The notes under the pieces: model-generated
Databases searched by the model: none
Seen by the model: only the letters and a program-made list of their open reading frames with translations
What the model was told of the DNA's origin: nothing
Shown here: piece by piece, positions 14,309 through 23,403 of the stretch
How the letters are laid out: each line of letters begins with the position of its first letter
How positions within the stretch are numbered: position 1 is the first letter of the stretch
Source of the DNA: a bacterium
Lineage (GTDB): Bacteria; Hinthialibacterota; Hinthialibacteria; OLB16
Length of the DNA: 64,000 nt
NCBI GenBank assembly: GCA_022072055.1
Contig: JAJVIK010000010.1
Location: 124,001-188,000, forward strand
Direction of reading: 5' to 3'
Made by a program: the position numbers and the translations under genes

Positions 14309-16318
14309 TCATCGCCGGATTCTCTGCTCCAGGAGATCGAGTTGGCGCGCGAGGTCGCGTGATGGCCGTGTCTCCCGGAGGCGTTGAATTTCCTCAAGAG
14401 TTTTCTGGTAATCCAGGGCGTAGAGGAGGGTCTGAAGGCGCAGCAGTGAGAGATTCTCACGTTCGGCCTGGGTCAGGTTTGGGTTTTCGGAGAGTTGCTC
14501 GAACAGTCGGCGGGCCTCGGCGTAATCTCCCCGGTTGTACTTGGTCTTGGAGAGGAGGTTCGCGGTGCGGGCATATTCCGGGCTCTTGGGGTCTTGGGAC
14601 TTGAGGAGATTGGAAAGAGTCTCCTCGGCCTTGGGGTAATCCTCGGAGCGGAAATCGAGGGAGGCCGCCTTGAAGAGGGCTTCCGGGTACTCCTCGGTTC
14701 CCGAGGCCTCAAGGGCCAAGGCATGCGCCACCTTGGCCGCGCCCGCGAAGTCGCCTTTGCCCTCGAGGAGCGCCAACAGCTCGCGGCTCGTCGCGAGCGA
14801 TTCCCCGACTCTCTCGGTTTGGCTTGTGTCTCGAAGTTGGAGGATTGCGATGGCTTCCTCAGGGCTGAAGCGTTCCGCACTCCTGGCGAGACGCTCTCTC
14901 TGCTCCCGGTTGGCGCTCTCGGCAAGGTGAAGGAGCAGCCCTTGGGCTTTCTCGCTACCACCCAGACCCTCATACGCCTCCCGGATGGAGAGGGCCAGTT
15001 TCTCGGCCTCCGGGGAGTAACTCGCCTCGCGAATAAAGCCGGATGCCCGCTCCAGACACAGCTCGAGTTCGCCCCGCGCCCGCTCCCGGAGGGGACGCTC
15101 AAGAGGCTCCAGGAGCACTCCCTCGAATCGCTCTCCGGAGATCTCTCCGGTGAGCGCCTGCATCGCTTTCCAGCGTCGGTCCAAGAGGGCGAGTGACTCG
15201 CGCCATGCCCCGGCTGTGACCGCGCTCTCTCTGCGCGGCTGGATTTGGAGGGCTTCAAGGACTGCAAGCGCCTCACGAATCTCATCCCGCGCAATCCGCG
15301 CGCGAGCCACCCACAAGAAGCGAGCCGGAAGGGTCGGGGTTGAGGTGAAGAGCGAGGCCGCGCTCACCAGAAGCGCGGGAAGGTGGTCGAGTGGGGCTTC
15401 TTGAACCGATTGAACGATTCGGTCCTCCGGGGTTGGGTTCCCAAGCGCCACTCGCAGGCGCGAAAGCGCCGGTTCGAGGAGCGCGCTCAGGTTCTTGTGG
15501 TAGTCGTTGGGGTGAGCCTGGAGCTCCTCGCGGAGTCGGGATAGCGCCGCGCTCGCCTGCTCTTTGCGCTCCTCGCGCTCCAAGCGCAACCCGTCTCGGA
15601 GAGACCGCAAGGCGTTCAGGTTCGACTTCGAGGGGACCGAGAGAATCTCGGCCTGAAGCCTTTCTCCGAGGCGATCCGCGAGGGTTGTGCGAAGCGACTC
15701 GATCCGTCTCGGCGTTTCCCACTCGAACGGCCAATCGGCAAGACCTCGGAGGAGCAAGTCCGCCGCCCGCTCCCAATCGGAGGCGGCCATGGCTGGGGAG
15801 ATCTCCTCGAGGTCGATGGCCCGTTCCACGAGGGTCCCGGAGTAAGTCTGCCTCAAAGTCGCAAAGAACCCGGGGCGCTCCCCCTCGGACATCTCAGCCG
15901 CCAGAAGACGCAATGACAGAATCCCGCTGACATCGTTCGGGCGCGCGCGCAGGAGTTGCCGCCAGAGGTCTTCATACTCGCCTGATTGGAGGCTCGGGAG
16001 TGTCGGCGTGGAAGGTTCGCCCGCCATCAGGCGCCTCCACCCCCGAACTCGAGCGGCGAGCGCGGAACTGGGGTGTTCCGTCTCCAGCTCCTCGCTCCAC
16101 TTGTTGAACAGGTGGATCTGGCGGCGCGAGAGGAACTCATGCAGACAGAGGTCCAGCAGGCGCAGGGTGGACACTTCGTTCGGATTAAACTTGCTCAGAG
16201 CGGCGCGGATTTCCCCTTCGCCATGGTCGGCCTTCCAATTGTCCACCTCCTCCAACGAGAGCGCGGAGGCATGAGACAGGCAGGCGACAAGAAGGGGAAC
16301 AACCAGGGGGAATCGCAT
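14309..16318 (-). CDS. Secreted tetratricopeptide-like helical repeat protein
   Basis: 669 residues with a clear signal peptide (FPLVVPLLVACLSHASA). The mature part is almost all amphipathic helix, rich in Leu, Glu, Arg and Ala, with recognisable TPR units near the C-terminus (PEALFKAASLDFRSEDYPKA, then a similar helix pair ending NRGDYAEARRLFEQL). A scaffold or assembly role in the periplasm is inferred; there is no enzymatic motif. It is divergent from the solute-binding/TPR fusion gene, with 98 nt between start codons, so the two may be co-regulated and interact. Confidence 0.6.
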   Translation of the reverse strand: MRFPLVVPLLVACLSHASALSLEEVDNWKADHGEGEIRAALSKFNPNEVSTLRLLDLCLHEFLSRRQIHLFNKWSEELETEHPSSALAARVRGWRRLMAGEPSTPTLPSLQSGEYEDLWRQLLRARPNDVSGILSLRLLAAEMSEGERPGFFATLRQTYSGTLVERAIDLEEISPAMAASDWERAADLLLRGLADWPFEWETPRRIESLRTTLADRLGERLQAEILSVPSKSNLNALRSLRDGLRLEREERKEQASAALSRLREELQAHPNDYHKNLSALLEPALSRLRVALGNPTPEDRIVQSVQEAPLDHLPALLVSAASLFTSTPTLPARFLWVARARIARDEIREALAVLEALQIQPRRESAVTAGAWRESLALLDRRWKAMQALTGEISGERFEGVLLEPLERPLRERARGELELCLERASGFIREASYSPEAEKLALSIREAYEGLGGSEKAQGLLLHLAESANREQRERLARSAERFSPEEAIAILQLRDTSQTERVGESLATSRELLALLEGKGDFAGAAKVAHALALEASGTEEYPEALFKAASLDFRSEDYPKAEETLSNLLKSQDPKSPEYARTANLLSKTKYNRGDYAEARRLFEQLSENPNLTQAERENLSLLRLQTLLYALDYQKTLEEIQRLRETRPSRDLARQLDLLEQRIRR

Positions 16319-16416: not shown

Positions 16417-19314
16417 ATGCAGAGACTCTGTCCAGCCATCGCGATCACCCTGTTGCTCGTTTTCACGCGCGCGGATCCCCAAGCGCGCTCCGAAATCCCC
16501 GTGAGCATCGAGGTGGGCAACCTCAACGCCGAGGATGGAGACATCTGGCTCCGTGGGGAGATCGAAAGTTTTCGCCGCGCGCACCCCAACATCCGGGTTC
16601 GTCTCTCCACCCTTGGTTTTCCCTCACGCAACGACATCCGCATTGAGCACTTGCCCGACCTTGCCTCGAACGTGCTGGGGGTAATCAGCGACCAGGGTTA
16701 CGAGATCACGTATCTGGTTGAACGGGACTTGATCCGTCCCATCGAGAGTTTCTTGCCGGATCCCGATCTGCGTTTGGAGGATTTTATCGGCAACAGTCTG
16801 GACGCTGTCACCTACAAGGGGAGGGTGTGGGGAATCCCATTCCTGGCCGCCTCCGTGTTGTTCCTGATTGATCAAGAGCTCTTCAGGCAGGCTGGGATAT
16901 CGAATCCACCCGCCACTTGGGATGAGGTTCTGGAGTATTCGCGGCGTTTGACTCGAGATTCCGATGGAGATGGGCGCGTGGATCAGTGGGGGTTTCGCCT
17001 GGGGATGCGCGGACGTCACGACACCCACATGTTTTTTCTGTGGCTGACTTTGGCGCTTCAGAAAGGGGCCGAAATCCTTCGCGAAGGGCGCGTGCAGCTC
17101 GATCACCCCGCTCTCCGCGAGGCCTATGATTTTCTGATGGCGCTACAGTCCTCAGGAGGCGCAAGGACCGACAATCGCCGCTTGCGCGAGACTCTCGCCG
17201 ATCAGACCGTTCGCTACGCCATGCAGATTGCCCCCACCTACCAGATCGGCCCGGCGGCCGGGATGATCCATTTTCGGATCATCCCCTGGCCCACATGGGG
17301 CAGGCCGGTCATCCCGGATGAGCGCCGTCACTATCTGGTGATCGGCAAGAGCACCCCCGAGAAGGAGGCGGCATCCTGGGAGTTCGTGAAATGGATGGTT
17401 CGGGCCGAGGCTCCCCATCCTCCGCAGGCCCAGTTCTTCGGGATATCTTGCCGGAAGGACCTGATCGAGCGCCCCGAAGTTCGCGCCAAGATCGACCGTT
17501 GGGCGCGGGGTTTTGATGTGGTCCAGGAGACCAAGGGGTGGAATCTCCGGCACGGGGACCCGGTGATGGGACGGTTTGACGCGCTTGAGCATCTCGAAAC
17601 GATTGTCACCAGGATGTTCCACTCGGAGATCTCCTTCGAGGAGGCGATGCGGATCGCCGAGACGGAGTGCAACGCGATCCTCCGTGATGCTCGCGGGATC
17701 GCGCAGCCTTACGCCTTGTATTTGCCGGACTCCACAGCTTCCAGCCAGACTGTTCAAGACCCCACGCTGGAGGCCCTATTCTCCGACTCAAGGGATATTC
17801 TGAAGACGCTTCCGAATCACCCCGGCGCGGAAGCTCTGCTGGATCGAACGCTCAAGATCTCCTCCGAGCCCTCTCACCGAGCGGGATTGCCCGCGCTGAT
17901 GGCCCAGTTTCCCGATCATCCGATGGGCCTCTTTGCGCTCGAAAAGACATTCATTGAGGCGGCCTCCGAAGGGACAGGGCGGAACCTGTGCGAGCAGGTC
18001 TTGAGGGACCATCAAGGATCATCTCTTTCGCTGCTGGCGTGGGACCTCCGGCTTCGTCTGCTTCCGCCTGATCAGCGTCTGGAGGTCATCCGCGAAGGCG
18101 TGGAGGGAGAGGACGATTCATTGCGGAGGGTGGCGCTGTTTCGACTTGCCGAGGACCTCCGTGAGATAGGAGACTTCGCGGGGGCGGCCGTTGCGTATCT
18201 CCGGTTCTGGGGAGATCATCCGGAGTGTGTTTCAAGGATGGGCCGGGACCGTGCGATCTTGGCTTGTCTCAAGAATGCGGGACACCCGTTGGACGCCGAA
18301 GCCCTGCTCGAGCTTTCGGATCCGGGATGGGTCGCGCGGATACTCCACGAGGCCCATGTGTCGGGTCTGCCTTCGGAGAGCGCGATTTTGATGCCCTTGC
18401 GGGAGTGGTGCGGCGCCGTGATGGATGGAAGCGACACGGAGGCGGACTGGACCGCCCTTGTTTCGGAAACTTCAACCTCCGAGTCAACGACCCGGACTCT
18501 CGAACTGGCGATGGAGGCGATCTACCGCGCCGCATCGATCGATCTGGCGCTTCGAGCGCGCACCGCCACGCTGTCGGAATGGGCGCTTCGAGGGACTTAC
18601 CGGTTGGAGTCCCCGCTGGACCGCGAGCTTGCCCGAAAGCTCGCGCTTCGCGCTTTCCACGCCGGAGTCAACGCCGCGCGCTCCGAAATCAGATGGCGGC
18701 CGCTTGCTTACCGGGTGTTTGAGTGTGCGAGACATCCTCTTGAGCGCCAGGGGGATTTCTCGTTAATCCTCTCGTTGCTCGAAGAGCTTGTGGACAAGGT
18801 TCCCGATGACCGGGAAAGCCCAGTCGCCCTTCAACGACTTGGGGAGCTCGCGCGAGACCGGGGGGAATTCGATCGCGCGCTCGGCGCGCTCGCGCGTGTC
18901 GCCGAGCAGTTCCCCGATTCGGAGGTGGCGGATGAGGCGGTTCTCACCCGAGGAGTCTGGCTTTACAGCGCGGGGCGTTACGCCGAGGCCAAGGAGGCCT
19001 TTGCTCGGTTATCGACCGTCGAGGGCAGGCCCCCCTCCGCGTTCCTCGAGCTCGCTGCCCTTTTTTGCGAAAGCGCGAATGATTCATCCCGCGACCTGGA
19101 AACCGAGCTCCAATCGTTCATACTCCAGCAGCACGACCATCCCCTCGCCAGGCGCGCGAGGCTGCTCCTGTCCGCAATGTATGTGGACCGGCTTGCGTTT
19201 CCCTTAGCCAAGGAAGTCTTGAGGAAGCTGAATCCGCCCGCCTCGGGAGACCCCGTTTGGGATCGATCCGCTCAAGCGCTTAAGGCGCTAAATTTCTCGC
19301 TATCGGAGCCATAG
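16417..19314 (+). CDS. Family 1-type extracellular solute-binding protein fused to C-terminal TPR domain
   Basis: 965 residues from the ATG at 16417 (GGAGAGG upstream). A signal peptide without a lipobox (AIAITLLLVF) is followed by a sugar-type binding domain (about 28-430). It shows SFRRAHPNIRVRLSTLGFPS, the hinge phrase YKGRVWGIPFLAASVLFLID, PPATWDEVLEYSRRLT and ASWEFVKWMV, all typical of MalE/UgpB-like proteins. From about residue 440 to the end the protein is helical repeats, with TPR-like units such as DRGEFDRALGALARVAEQFP. No permease or ATPase genes lie nearby, so it may be a sensor or scaffold rather than a transport component. The fusion is unusual. Confidence 0.75.
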   Translation: MQRLCPAIAITLLLVFTRADPQARSEIPVSIEVGNLNAEDGDIWLRGEIESFRRAHPNIRVRLSTLGFPSRNDIRIEHLPDLASNVLGVISDQGYEITYLVERDLIRPIESFLPDPDLRLEDFIGNSLDAVTYKGRVWGIPFLAASVLFLIDQELFRQAGISNPPATWDEVLEYSRRLTRDSDGDGRVDQWGFRLGMRGRHDTHMFFLWLTLALQKGAEILREGRVQLDHPALREAYDFLMALQSSGGARTDNRRLRETLADQTVRYAMQIAPTYQIGPAAGMIHFRIIPWPTWGRPVIPDERRHYLVIGKSTPEKEAASWEFVKWMVRAEAPHPPQAQFFGISCRKDLIERPEVRAKIDRWARGFDVVQETKGWNLRHGDPVMGRFDALEHLETIVTRMFHSEISFEEAMRIAETECNAILRDARGIAQPYALYLPDSTASSQTVQDPTLEALFSDSRDILKTLPNHPGAEALLDRTLKISSEPSHRAGLPALMAQFPDHPMGLFALEKTFIEAASEGTGRNLCEQVLRDHQGSSLSLLAWDLRLRLLPPDQRLEVIREGVEGEDDSLRRVALFRLAEDLREIGDFAGAAVAYLRFWGDHPECVSRMGRDRAILACLKNAGHPLDAEALLELSDPGWVARILHEAHVSGLPSESAILMPLREWCGAVMDGSDTEADWTALVSETSTSESTTRTLELAMEAIYRAASIDLALRARTATLSEWALRGTYRLESPLDRELARKLALRAFHAGVNAARSEIRWRPLAYRVFECARHPLERQGDFSLILSLLEELVDKVPDDRESPVALQRLGELARDRGEFDRALGALARVAEQFPDSEVADEAVLTRGVWLYSAGRYAEAKEAFARLSTVEGRPPSAFLELAALFCESANDSSRDLETELQSFILQQHDHPLARRARLLLSAMYVDRLAFPLAKEVLRKLNPPASGDPVWDRSAQALKALNFSLSEP

Positions 19315-19455: not shown

Positions 19456-20052
19456 ATGGGCGGACGGGTTTTTCAGGTGAGCATCTCCGACCTGAAGCGG
19501 TTGGAGGAGAGCGCTTGGAGTCAGGTGTATTCGGCGCTCAAGGACCATGTCTTCAACCTGGCCATGCGCCGGACTGGGGACCGGGACCTTTCGCTCGATG
19601 TGGTCCAACAAACCTTCATCACCGCGATGGCCACGATTGACAAGTTCAATGGAGACGGTCCTCTGCTGGCGGGTTGGATCACGGGCATCGCGCGGAATGT
19701 GGCCTATAGCGCCCGGCGCATGGAGGAATCCTTATCATCCCATCCGGATTACCCTCGCCCACCCATCTTAGATCGAGCGCCCCTTCCCGACATGACCCTG
19801 ATGATGCTTCAGGACCAGGAAGTGTTCGAACTGGCTCTCAGCGGGTTGCCGAAACACTGGGAGGAAGTCTTGCGCTGGCGATATTGCGAAGACCTGTCAC
19901 TCGATGAAATCGGGCGACGTCTCGAACTTTCTCCTCGTTCGGCGGAGTCCCTGGTGCGACGCGCGCGCAACGCGCTCCAGGAGGCGATTCTGGACATTGT
20001 TGGAGGCGAGAAACCGCCTCTTGGCCACCTCAGGGAGGTGCGTGTTCTATGA
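19456..20052 (+). CDS. ECF-like RNA polymerase sigma-70 family factor
   Basis: 198 residues with two conserved blocks. Region 2 (about 30-85) reads HVFNLAMRRTGDRDLSLDVV, then QQTFITAM and a WITGIARNVA segment for core binding and -10 recognition. Region 4 (about 125-180) has ALSGLPKHWEEVLRWRYCED followed by the helix-turn-helix LSLDEIGRRLELSPRSAESL. Domains 1 and 3 are missing, as in ECF sigma factors. The stop overlaps the start of the next gene by 4 nt (ATGA), which implies translational coupling, the usual arrangement for a sigma factor with its membrane anti-sigma partner. The regulon is unknown; the following small secreted genes are the likeliest targets. Confidence 0.88.
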   Translation: MGGRVFQVSISDLKRLEESAWSQVYSALKDHVFNLAMRRTGDRDLSLDVVQQTFITAMATIDKFNGDGPLLAGWITGIARNVAYSARRMEESLSSHPDYPRPPILDRAPLPDMTLMMLQDQEVFELALSGLPKHWEEVLRWRYCEDLSLDEIGRRLELSPRSAESLVRRARNALQEAILDIVGGEKPPLGHLREVRVL

Positions 20053-21914
20053 CCGACCCGCGCGATCGCACACCCCTTGAAGATTCCGATCTCAAGCGCT
20101 TTCTGGAGAAGACCCCGATGCTGGAAAGGCTGACCGAACAGGAGCAGGTTCAAATCGAGCGGCAGTTGATGGCGGAACTTCGCAGGATCAAGCAAGCGCG
20201 GGATATCGTCCCGTGGTGGAAGAGCGTCGACTGGCGCGCGGTGGGGATCGCGGCGGTTGTGCTCCTGAGTTTCGCCGTGGTGTATCTCTATCCGATCTTG
20301 TTCAAACCTCCGGCTCGCCCGCCGGATCCAGACGCTCCCGGTCACGGGATCATGCCTCCGGCTCGCGCGGTGGGTCCGGTTTTTAACCGGTCCGATCCGA
20401 GTGCGGCTGACAGCATCCAAGCGCCGTTTCCGGATGCCCCGACTCCGGCGACCGGGACCTTGGAAGAGCCCACCCGAACCCAGCTCAACTGGCTCCCCAA
20501 GGAGAACTTATGTGGTCCGAACAGCCTCTGGATCGCCGCGCTCCGCCTCGGTGTCCAGGTTGAGCAGGAGCAGGTGGCGAGGGCGGTCGACTCCGAGGAG
20601 GGTGGCGCCACGCTCTGGGACTTGAAACGCGCGGCGGAAGAATTGGGGCTGCAAGCCGAGGGCGTGCGGATGACTTGGGAGGAGTTGCGAGAGTTGGAAG
20701 GGCCGGCGGTGTTGTTCGTCCGCGGGGATCACTTCGTCTGCGTCGATCCCCGAGAACGAGCAGACCCAACGGAATCGATCCGGGTCCATGACCTTCCACG
20801 GCCCGCGGAGTGGGTGACACGCGGTCAGATTGAGACCGAATGGAGCGGGGAGGCGTTGGTCCTTTCGCGCGCCGACACCGGGATTCCGCCAGGCTGTCCG
20901 AGCATTCGCATGGATTCACTCTATGAGGATTTTGGGGTTGAGGAGGGACCGGTCACTCTTTCGTTCCCCTTCCGAAACCTCGGATCTGAGCCGTTGGAAA
21001 TCCTTGAGGTCCGCCCATCGTGCGGGTGTCTCTCGGTGGCGCCGGCGGTCGACCGGATCCCTCCCGGTGGAGAAAGCGCCGTGCTTGTGGATCTCAACCT
21101 TTCGGGCCAGGAAGGCGTCCAGAAACGAACCGTGGAGATCAAGACGAACGATCCGGACCGTCCGACAGTCGAACTGTTCCTCCATGGCTTGGCGCGCAGC
21201 TCAATCCGGGTTTCCGCCGACAAAGTGAACTTCGGCGAATTGGCGGTTGGGGAGCGCGCCACGCGCGGCTTCGCCATTTTTGACCGGTTCGACGGAACCT
21301 TGAAAGTCACCGGAGTGGAACTCTCGCTGGAATCCGCCGTGGAGTCTCCCCCCAAGCTCTCAGTCCACTTCGAGAGGGTGGCCCCGGAGGTGGCGCGGGA
21401 GCGAACACGGAAGTATGCGCTGGGCGAAAACGCGATTGCCTACTGGGTTGAGGTCGAAGCCGAGGTGACCTCCGAGACATCCCAGGAGGGTTTCAGGGGA
21501 CAGGTGCTGGTTAAGACCGATTCCGAGCGACCTCCGGTCATTGCTGTTCCCTTCGAGCTCAACGTTCTGGGCGACTACTACGCTGTTCCGGAGAAGGTCT
21601 ATTTCGGTCTGGTGCGACCGGGCCAAGCGATCTCGAGGGAGATATCGATCCGGCGGAGGTCGGGTGCTCGAGCGGAGATCGAGGCCGCGCGCGCCCTACG
21701 CCGTGGATTGGATTCCGAGAGCGCTGGGGGAATTCATGTCGACTTGGATACCGCCCCCACGACCGAGGGAGAGGCGACCGTTCGCCTGGTGATGGCGCAT
21801 CGCGATGGGGCGCACGCGCCGGCGGGCTTTGAGTCGGGAATCTTGGAAGTAAGAGCCAAGGATGGCGCGATCCTCCGCGTTCCCTGGACTTCAATTCAAT
21901 CGGATGGACAGTGA
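20049..21914 (+). CDS. Membrane protein with extracytoplasmic C39-peptidase-like and DUF1573 domains; possible anti-sigma partner
   Basis: 621 residues. An N-terminal charged helical segment (1-58) is followed by one membrane helix (about 64-84) and a Pro-rich linker. Residues about 145-272 resemble a C39 peptidase: NLCGPNSLW with nucleophile-position C155, then VLFVRGDHFVCVD with H218, and a downstream Asp (D248 in VHDLP). The usual oxyanion Gln six residues before the Cys is not in place. Residues about 285-385 form a DUF1573-like Ig domain with FRNLGSEPLEILEVRPSCGC; more beta domains follow. Topology puts the peptidase outside the cytoplasm. Translational coupling to the sigma gene and the cytoplasmic N-segment suggest an anti-sigma or sensor role, but no known anti-sigma domain was recognised. 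Confidence 0.7.
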   Translation: MTDPRDRTPLEDSDLKRFLEKTPMLERLTEQEQVQIERQLMAELRRIKQARDIVPWWKSVDWRAVGIAAVVLLSFAVVYLYPILFKPPARPPDPDAPGHGIMPPARAVGPVFNRSDPSAADSIQAPFPDAPTPATGTLEEPTRTQLNWLPKENLCGPNSLWIAALRLGVQVEQEQVARAVDSEEGGATLWDLKRAAEELGLQAEGVRMTWEELRELEGPAVLFVRGDHFVCVDPRERADPTESIRVHDLPRPAEWVTRGQIETEWSGEALVLSRADTGIPPGCPSIRMDSLYEDFGVEEGPVTLSFPFRNLGSEPLEILEVRPSCGCLSVAPAVDRIPPGGESAVLVDLNLSGQEGVQKRTVEIKTNDPDRPTVELFLHGLARSSIRVSADKVNFGELAVGERATRGFAIFDRFDGTLKVTGVELSLESAVESPPKLSVHFERVAPEVARERTRKYALGENAIAYWVEVEAEVTSETSQEGFRGQVLVKTDSERPPVIAVPFELNVLGDYYAVPEKVYFGLVRPGQAISREISIRRRSGARAEIEAARALRRGLDSESAGGIHVDLDTAPTTEGEATVRLVMAHRDGAHAPAGFESGILEVRAKDGAILRVPWTSIQSDGQ

Positions 21915-21926
21915 GAGGAGGAAATC

Positions 21927-22418
21927 ATGAGTGGGTGGCTGTATGGGTTTGGGATGGCGTTACTGGTGGCGTTATCCATGAATTATGGGTGGGCGGGTCC
22001 ACGGCCGCTGACGCGCGCGGAAATGGAGTCCGCTCGAGGCGGGCACGGGCCCTCCTGCACGGAGTGCACGGCTGACTTTTGGGTCTTTCATGAATGCAAT
22101 CACTCAACGCCGAGCGACCCCTGCCAGGGGAGTCAGTGCATTGAATTCCAAATCATTGAAGACACCTGCTTCATTCGTGAAAGCGGCATCTGCCTGGCGG
22201 AATTGGACCCGTACAGTATCGCGGCCGTCAAATATTTGCGCGAAGACACCAATTGCACGACCAACAATTCGGGGCCGTCACAAGTGGTCTTCACGCACTA
22301 TTACGGAAGTGAGTGTCTGTCCCGGTATTGGCTTACCCGCTGCCCAAAGACGGGAGGGCCGTGTAACGGGGAATTGATCGACTCGGCCGACCTGTATCTG
22401 GCAATCGCGTGCTATTAA
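21927..22418 (+). CDS. Secreted cysteine-rich protein with double-glycine leader-like motif
   Basis: 163 residues with a strong ribosome site (GAGGAGGAAATC). An N-terminal hydrophobic signal (residues 3-23) is followed by GPRPLTRAEMESARGG, ending in G38-G39, which resembles the L-x2-E(L/M)-x2-(A/V)-x-GG pattern recognised by C39 peptidases. The remaining 124 residues hold exactly 12 cysteines, suggesting six disulfides, and many Asn, Thr and Ser residues. No family is recognised. The gene lies 12 nt after the extracytoplasmic C39-like protein, so proteolytic maturation at Gly-Gly after Sec export is a direct structural prediction. It could be a signalling peptide, a toxin or a surface protein. 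Confidence 0.7.
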   Translation: MSGWLYGFGMALLVALSMNYGWAGPRPLTRAEMESARGGHGPSCTECTADFWVFHECNHSTPSDPCQGSQCIEFQIIEDTCFIRESGICLAELDPYSIAAVKYLREDTNCTTNNSGPSQVVFTHYYGSECLSRYWLTRCPKTGGPCNGELIDSADLYLAIACY

Positions 22419-22437
22419 CAGATTGGAGGAACCGAAG

Positions 22438-23403
22438 ATGAGGATCGAACACAAAGCAGTGGTCGTGGCCGTCCTCGTGGCGGCTGGGATGGTCGCGGCG
22501 GCGCCCGCACAGGACCAGGCCCTTCCGATCCGCGAGATGCTGGACGCCTTCGATCAGGCCTTTTTCTCGTCGTGCACGGTCAGGCTCCGCGCCACGTTGC
22601 CGGCGACAGCCTTTGATTTGAGCCAAGGACTCATCGACGCGGATGTGGTGATGAGCGCCGATGGCGCGGAGCAGGCCCTCTTCGTGGAGCGGCATGAGAT
22701 CGCCAACCCGGTATTCAACGCCAACGAAATTCGACGGACCAATGACCAGGGGGAGAACTACGAGGTGAGCTTGGAAAAGCGGAGTTTTGTGTTGCTTGCC
22801 CGTGACGCCTGGAGTCGACGCGCCGATTTCCAGACCCTTTCGATCACTCCGCAAAGCTCCCTCGCGGGGATTTCCGTGAGCCGTCCACTCGTTGAGGTTC
22901 GCCCAGTAAGACATCCGGACGCCGCCAACCTGTTCTACCGGTATGTCCTCCAACTCGGGCGGGGGTATTCGGGTCTGCTTTCGGAGGTCACCGCGGTGGA
23001 GGAGCAACCGGATGGAACTGTCCGCGTCGAGGGAAGGGGAACCCTCTTTTCCCCGCATGTGGGCGCCTGGGAACTCATCGTGGACCTGACCCAGGGATGC
23101 TTGGTGACTTCCGCCTCCTTCAAACAAGATGACGGCGCCGAAAAGTCACTCATCGGGGGAGAGGATGGCGCGGAGATCGTGGGAACCGAACTCCCGATCC
23201 TCTCGAAGGGAACCTTCCACCTTGCACCGGACTACCCGATTACAGTCGAGGTCCAAGAGTACACCCGCTCGGCCTCGCCCACTCTCATCGCGGATGTACG
23301 CCAAGCGGTCGGTTCTCCGGGCGGTAACTTCACGCTCCTGGATTTCTCAAACGTGGACGGCGCTGGGGCGCCGCTCGTGGTTAAGGGAAGGAAGGCCGAG
23401 TGA
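22438..23403 (+). CDS. Secreted protein of unknown function in the sigma/C39 cluster
   Basis: 321 residues; GGAGGA at 22425-22430 fixes the ATG at 22438. The signal peptide runs to about residue 25 (VLVAAGMVAAAPAQD). The mature protein is rich in beta strands and resembles in outline LolA-like or outer-membrane lipoprotein-sorting folds: an initial helix (IREMLDAFDQAFFSSCTVRL) and then repeated strands, one of which reads GAWELIVDLTQGCLVTSASF. No catalytic motif is evident. It follows the cysteine-rich gene by 19 nt and is almost certainly in the same operon, so it may carry or bind that product. Confidence 0.6.
   Translation: MRIEHKAVVVAVLVAAGMVAAAPAQDQALPIREMLDAFDQAFFSSCTVRLRATLPATAFDLSQGLIDADVVMSADGAEQALFVERHEIANPVFNANEIRRTNDQGENYEVSLEKRSFVLLARDAWSRRADFQTLSITPQSSLAGISVSRPLVEVRPVRHPDAANLFYRYVLQLGRGYSGLLSEVTAVEEQPDGTVRVEGRGTLFSPHVGAWELIVDLTQGCLVTSASFKQDDGAEKSLIGGEDGAEIVGTELPILSKGTFHLAPDYPITVEVQEYTRSASPTLIADVRQAVGSPGGNFTLLDFSNVDGAGAPLVVKGRKAE

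Follow-up and report, generated by a model that had tools for sequence, protein, structure and literature searches.

The stretch of DNA analysed here (the window, 64,000 nucleotides of the bacterial contig JAJVIK010000010.1) carries a gene for a 621-residue protein in which a C39 peptidase domain and a DUF1573 domain are joined behind a single membrane helix. The start of this gene (20049-21914) lies within an ATGA, giving a 4-bp overlap with the stop of the gene for an extracytoplasmic function (ECF) sigma factor (19456-20052), and a Cys-rich exported protein with a double-glycine leader is encoded downstream. A preliminary description of this DNA had drawn attention to the overlap and to a layout of short cytoplasmic segment, one membrane helix and external C39 and DUF1573 domains, and had proposed an anti-sigma factor with a peptidase as its sensor. 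The overlap was borne out, with the sigma factor assigned to the ECF type by both Pfam and NCBIfam, as was the layout (58 residues ahead of the helix; Pfam, hydropathy and an AlphaFold2 (AF2) model, the topology being predicted). We read the protein as probably an extracytoplasmic protease that processes double-glycine leaders and that carries a cytoplasmic tail of two predicted helices with a putative anti-sigma role. The features are as follows, the two flanking genes standing last.

19456..20052, +: ECF-type sigma factor, 198 residues (Pfam Sigma70_r2 and Sigma70_r4 over cut-off; NCBIfam sigma70-ECF)
20049..21914, +: C39-DUF1573 protein, 621 residues (open reading frame; Pfam domains)
20049..20228, +: cytoplasmic N-segment, residues 1-60, putative sigma-binding tail (AF2 helices 12-21 and 30-53; kept in the relative G002)
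20229..20300, +: membrane helix, residues ~61-84 (hydropathy; AF2 helix 62-84)
20502..20876, +: predicted extracytoplasmic C39 peptidase domain, residues 152-276 (Pfam; fold match; residue positions)
20940..21167, +: DUF1573 domain, residues 298-373, with CGC at 325-327 (Pfam; AF2/Foldseek)
21927..22418, +: Cys-rich exported protein, 163 residues, probable C39 substrate (G002 ortholog in the equivalent position)
22008..22043, +: double-glycine leader LTRAEMESARGG, residues 28-39 (consensus score; motif retained in G002)
22432..23403, +: exported protein, 323 residues, in the slot of the LolA-like gene of other cassettes (G002 ortholog)
16417..19314, +: solute-binding-protein-like (SBP) and TPR protein (SBP_bac_1, E 3.9e-13)

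The C39-DUF1573 protein, its Cys-rich neighbour and the relative G002

Both domains of the 621-residue protein scored well over their Pfam cut-offs: Peptidase_C39 (PF03412) at residues 152-276 (E 9.4e-14, 51.8 bits against a cut-off of 22) and DUF1573 (PF07610) at residues 298-373 (E 1.9e-15, 57.1 bits against 26.1). One or more further Ig-like beta domains follow until about residue 506 by AF2 and Foldseek. The C39 site residues Cys155, His228 and Asp248 are all in place in the alignment. Hydropathy gave a single hydrophobic helix starting at residues 59-62, and the AF2 model (m440b557e5d76) has helices at 12-21 and 30-53, a membrane helix at 62-84 and then the C39 and beta domains. In Foldseek comparisons the C39 part matched 6mpz, a double-glycine protease domain solved with leader peptide (TM score 0.75, normalised to the target), and the beta domains matched HYDIN/ASH-type Ig folds. 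Among solved structures, a profile of the C39-DUF1573 family matched PCAT1/ComA chains at E 1e-18 to 1e-14, and the C39 domain of HlyB was also matched. No ABC domain was found in the 621-residue protein with Pfam or NCBIfam. A second C39 domain was not found in the window's genome; since the window copy is the sole one detected there, a classical C39-ABC exporter that could act on the neighbouring protein's leader was not found either.

That neighbour (21927-22418) has 12 Cys and no Pfam or NCBIfam match. Its N-terminal hydrophobic segment is followed by LTRAEMESARGG and then HGPSC. Double-glycine leaders are known as cytosolic tags that are cut by the C39 domains of ABC exporters. Against their consensus, LTRAEMESARGG has Leu-12, Thr-11, Glu-8, Met-7, Gly-2 and Gly-1 and scores 7/7 (shuffle p 0.0005), with the cut predicted after Gly39. 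The mature Cys-rich proteins, diverse and with many Cys, would be compatible with secreted, disulphide-rich effectors and with surface proteins alike. A candidate paralogous double-glycine protein elsewhere in the genome was rejected: the one match, L172, was weak (E 0.03), and none was visible among its open reading frames.

The family relative, genome G002, has the same order of genes at two contig ends. Contig C421 (L093/L024) carries the SBP/TPR gene, the sigma gene and the start of the C39 protein; contig C465 (L019/L094) carries the end of the C39 protein, a Cys-rich protein with MTETAMRELIGG and then the third exported protein. We infer that the two ends are one gene with its middle unassembled. 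Identity between window and G002 is 35% for sigma, 40% for the positionally equivalent Cys-rich proteins, in which the leader is retained as MTETAMRELIGG, 33% for the 323-residue protein and just 24% for the C-terminal part of the C39-DUF1573 protein; the N-terminal fragment was matched at E 2e-5. The SBP/TPR homologue, which likewise precedes sigma, is 39% identical over 900 residues (E 1.9e-196). Going by gene order only, the SBP/TPR gene of the window (16417-19314) would be part of the operon. It forms a divergent pair with a TPR gene on the reverse strand (14309-16318). As L093 of G002 has this pair 5' of its sigma gene too, the conserved block exceeds the operon described here. No usable common promoter was found 5' of sigma in window and G002, where only one 7-mer is common and distances differ.

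Three side observations concern DUF1573. Among the other DUF1573 genes of the window's genome (L096, L097, L098), those of L096 and L098 adjoined neither a sigma gene nor a double-glycine gene in the lists that were read. The NCBIfam family OS_HP2 (seleno)protein was a below-cut-off match for the window protein, and an in-frame TGA occurs in DUF1573 proteins of L018 (1189-3276, genome G052) and of L012, L013, L014 and L021. The TGA of L018 lies within a Cys motif (TDTUACTS aligned to PSCGCLS) and probably encodes selenocysteine; the window copy has Cys.

Double-glycine motifs beside and within exported C39 proteins

C39-DUF1573 proteins were searched for in 14 genomes of the window's phylum, 85 genomes of the phylum of G052 (Candidatus Poribacteria, per the named records matched) and 386 widely diverse genomes; the collection was scanned with a profile of the Poribacterial subset, a broad 10-sequence alignment being too diverse. 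At least five phylum-level lineages were found to have exported C39-DUF1573 proteins, whose genes are in most cases not overlapped by a sigma gene. These proteins recur in a cassette of variable order, made up of a double-glycine Cys-rich exported protein, an exported, LolA-like protein of ~300 residues and the exported C39-DUF1573 protein. The cassette is present in 4 of the 14 genomes of the window's phylum (including L090 in G012 and L151 in G011), in many Poribacteria and in three further lineages (L148 in G226, L149 in G211 and L150 in G241), and the double-glycine/C39-DUF1573 pairing is found in several separate lineages. In addition, L167 has an exported C39-only protein with a small exported neighbour bearing LSDMEMKGVLGG.

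The leader score was at least 6 in 17/20 small proteins of cassettes versus 6/278 other open reading frames with a hydrophobic start, the score using seven positions that follow the known consensus but were set once examples had been seen. Presence of a leader gene also followed the catalytic Cys. Such a gene was found within 6 kb at 15/22 loci that kept the Cys, versus 0/5 that had lost it (L088, L091, L092, L102, L103; Fisher p 0.0098, the Poribacterial loci being related, so that the counts overstate independence). A match to a Cys-poor protein 5.9 kb from L088 was spurious and was not counted. Some of the 7/22 Cys-positive loci without a leader gene in this range lie at contig ends.

The third gene of the cassette is less uniform. 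Its copy in L149 passes PF17131 (LolA_like), and in some Poribacteria a LolA-like part is fused ahead of C39. A LolA identity for the window's 323-residue product was rejected (no Pfam match; hhalign probability 0.9% to the cassette homologues; AF2 pLDDT 34.5). Genes for STT3/PMT-like oligosaccharyltransferases lie directly 3' of several Poribacterial cassettes (L075 6231-8807, PF02516 E 4.3e-12; L077 4053-6704; L080 8369-11047), a hint that the double-glycine proteins may be glycosylated.

The motif also occurs in cis. In exported giants of 1,200-2,500 residues a double-glycine motif stands immediately after C39 in 7/7 (shuffle probability 0.004-0.033 each): LSEKEMERIRGA in L168 (3873-7661), LNLKQMKLISGG in L155 (1776-7277), LSKKEMKISWGG in L163 (1132-5832), LKPQEMAKIWGG in L157, VSEEGMKTIIGG in L156, IQLALMERIRGG in L158 and LSKQRMKEIRGA in L162. 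The three giants scanned for domains have TPR, C39 and then RHS repeats. The motif was found after C39 in 0/4 cytosolic, transporter-like C39 proteins of ~1,000 residues (L154, L159, L160, L161), which, judged by starts and lengths and not by family scan, look like C39-ABC proteins. That C39 is fused to the motif it would recognise argues strongly that domain and motif belong together, and the giant C39/RHS-type proteins are apparently self-processing.

The cytoplasmic tail and alternative readings

Anti-sigma genes can be recognised operationally as conserved genes that overlap or adjoin an ECF sigma gene, and this is the arrangement found here, by overlap in the window and by gene order in G002. 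Of the C39-DUF1573 proteins compared, only the sigma-overlapping pair of window and G002 was found to have the 58-residue tail ahead of the membrane helix; in most lineages the protein starts directly with a signal peptide or a lipoprotein signal, and its gene is not overlapped by a sigma gene. Between window and G002 the tail retains LEKxPxxERLxExExxQ, and the moderate-confidence AF2 model has its two helices (12-21 and 30-53) ahead of the membrane helix. In the class II anti-sigma factor CnrY, sigma4 is bound by the first of two helices and sigma2 by the second (PMC7406223). Because the tail is restricted to the sigma-overlapping lineage, keeps its motif in G002 and has a predicted CnrY-like two-helix layout, we lean slightly towards a sigma-binding segment that would contact the sigma factor. 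The anti-sigma idea of the preliminary description is partly supported, by the conservation of both sigma and N-segment in G002; a match to an anti-sigma family was not obtained (see below). An anti-sigma role confined to the window's lineage is plausible but unproven.

Sigma genes recur near the cassettes of Poribacteria, where one lies within 4 kb at 8/24 loci versus ~2.4 expected from sigma density (P ~0.003, suggestive only, given the relatedness of the loci and the great number of sigma genes in this phylum). At L073, L078 and L079 the cassette is headed by a sigma protein that carries a membrane helix itself. These results support a connection of sigma control to C39 cassettes in Poribacteria that recurs but is loose. 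ECF sigma factors with a C-terminal membrane helix and large, apparently repeat-rich outer parts of up to ~750 residues were seen at L073 (181-1467), L078 (3252-4592), L102 (8404-11418) and L103 (3506-6412), and the five genomes in which sigma genes were counted have 37-80 each.

In the working that we propose, the C39 domain would face outward, outside the inner membrane, held by helix 62-84. It would cut the leader of the Sec-type exported Cys-rich protein (21927-22418) after translocation, following Gly-Gly, and the Cys-rich part would thereby be set free of the leader or of a membrane anchor, with DUF1573 (Ig-like, ASH/HYDIN-type) and the third exported protein as presumed accessories. In the window's lineage only, the protease would have gained the two-helix cytoplasmic tail of 58 residues, its gene coming to overlap the ECF sigma gene, and the tail would bind sigma in the class II manner of CnrY, so that expression would depend on the state of the protease. 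More tentatively, and on balance doubtfully, the protease might double as the anti-sigma factor of its own operon, with occupancy of C39 (substrate present or exhausted) signalled across the membrane to the tail, which would hold or free sigma.

Several observations weigh against this reading. The oxyanion-hole Gln, six residues before the catalytic Cys, is replaced by Leu149 in the window protein and is kept in only 2/14 cassette members. The AF2 model of the 621-residue protein has a mean pLDDT of 59 from an alignment of six, and the topology is predicted. In Pfam and NCBIfam the N-segment matched no anti-sigma family (sole hit FYTT, E 0.021, below cut-off); the preliminary description had seen a helical stretch there but no zinc-binding or RskA-type motif. 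The evidence on this segment comes from two genomes, with the G002 gene divided over two contigs and its C39 part unassembled. To these are added the way in which the leader score was set, the seven Cys-positive loci lacking a nearby leader gene and the relatedness of the Poribacterial loci.

Some of the same observations would fit a protease and nothing more, in which the N-segment is simply a long N-terminus on a signal anchor, the usual close packing of operon genes accounts for the 4-bp overlap, and sigma is controlled otherwise or switches the cassette on constitutively. The lack of a sigma gene beside C39-DUF1573 in most lineages, the unmatched N-segment and, in several Poribacterial cassettes, a sigma protein that is separate and has a membrane helix of its own all point this way. 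A mere anchor, however, would need neither the conservation of LEKxPxxERLxExExxQ in G002 nor a 58-residue tail found only in sigma-overlapping members, and we regard this alternative as quite possible but not favoured. It is unlikely that C39 binds the double-glycine leader without cutting it, in a chaperone or retention role like that of the inactive C39 domain of HlyB. HlyB-type C39 domains, which are known not to cut, also match the family profile, and the oxyanion Gln is missing; but catalytic Cys and His are retained in most members, and disappearance of the leader gene where the Cys is lost fits catalysis better. The reading of the preliminary description, taken as a dedicated anti-sigma factor with C39 and DUF1573 as catalytically idle sensor modules, draws on the gene overlap, the topology and the lost Gln but is very unlikely given the intact Cys155-His228-Asp248, the co-occurrence of double-glycine substrates across lineages, the loss of leader genes with the Cys, and the cis-fusions. 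As C39-DUF1573 proteins mostly lack an overlapping sigma gene and travel with double-glycine exported proteins, a role of the peptidase in processing is a better reading than one as a dedicated sensor for sigma.

Relation to known systems and significance

FapD, encoded in the Fap amyloid operon of Pseudomonas, is a periplasmic C39 protease whose catalytic Cys is required for FapC secretion and whose target is not settled; the Fap proteins have no canonical leader (PMC5557850). The window protein resembles FapD in having a C39 peptidase predicted to lie outside the inner membrane and encoded beside an exported substrate system. It differs in that its partner has a textbook double-glycine leader and in that the protease is joined to DUF1573 and its gene overlaps a sigma gene. 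With 16.1 bits against the cut-off of 330 for the FapD equivalog (NF058616), it is not a FapD. In our best reading, FapD is the nearest precedent for the extracytoplasmic double-glycine processing proposed here.

With PCAT/AMS bacteriocin exporters (PCAT1, ComA, LahT-type) the window system shares the C39 fold, the Cys-His-Asp residues and the leader consensus L-S-x-x-E-[LM]-x-x-I-x-G-G. In those exporters, however, a cytosolic C39 domain is fused to an ABC transporter and cuts before export, whereas the window protein has no ABC transporter part, its C39 domain is predicted to be exported and lacks the oxyanion Gln, and the leader next door follows a signal peptide. The tail is like that of class II CnrY in being predicted as a short two-helix cytosolic segment ahead of a membrane helix and in being encoded with an ECF sigma factor (PMC7406223), but no sequence relation is detectable, the outer part is a protease with DUF1573, and sigma binding is putative. 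Membrane-attached ECF sigma factors of Poribacteria (L073 181-1467, L078 3252-4592) likewise place sigma beside a double-glycine/C39-DUF1573 cassette; there, in contrast, membrane helix and outer part belong to sigma, and the C39-DUF1573 protein lacks a cytoplasmic tail. A limited literature search, which is not proof of novelty, found no paper that links peptidase C39 to DUF1573 or to RHS polymorphic toxins, or double-glycine to Poribacteria.

Exported C39 domains with double-glycine sites, in trans in small Cys-rich proteins or in cis in giant RHS-type proteins, would mean that one code has a second use, after translocation, in several little-studied lineages. FapD, the target of which is unclear, would gain a wider context with obvious substrates, and the apparent self-processing of the giants may be a new way of releasing RHS-type proteins. 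Because cut site (Gly39) and catalytic residue are predicted exactly, the prediction is directly testable. Coupled to a sigma factor, a C39 protease of this kind would add a new type of sensor to the anti-sigma factors.
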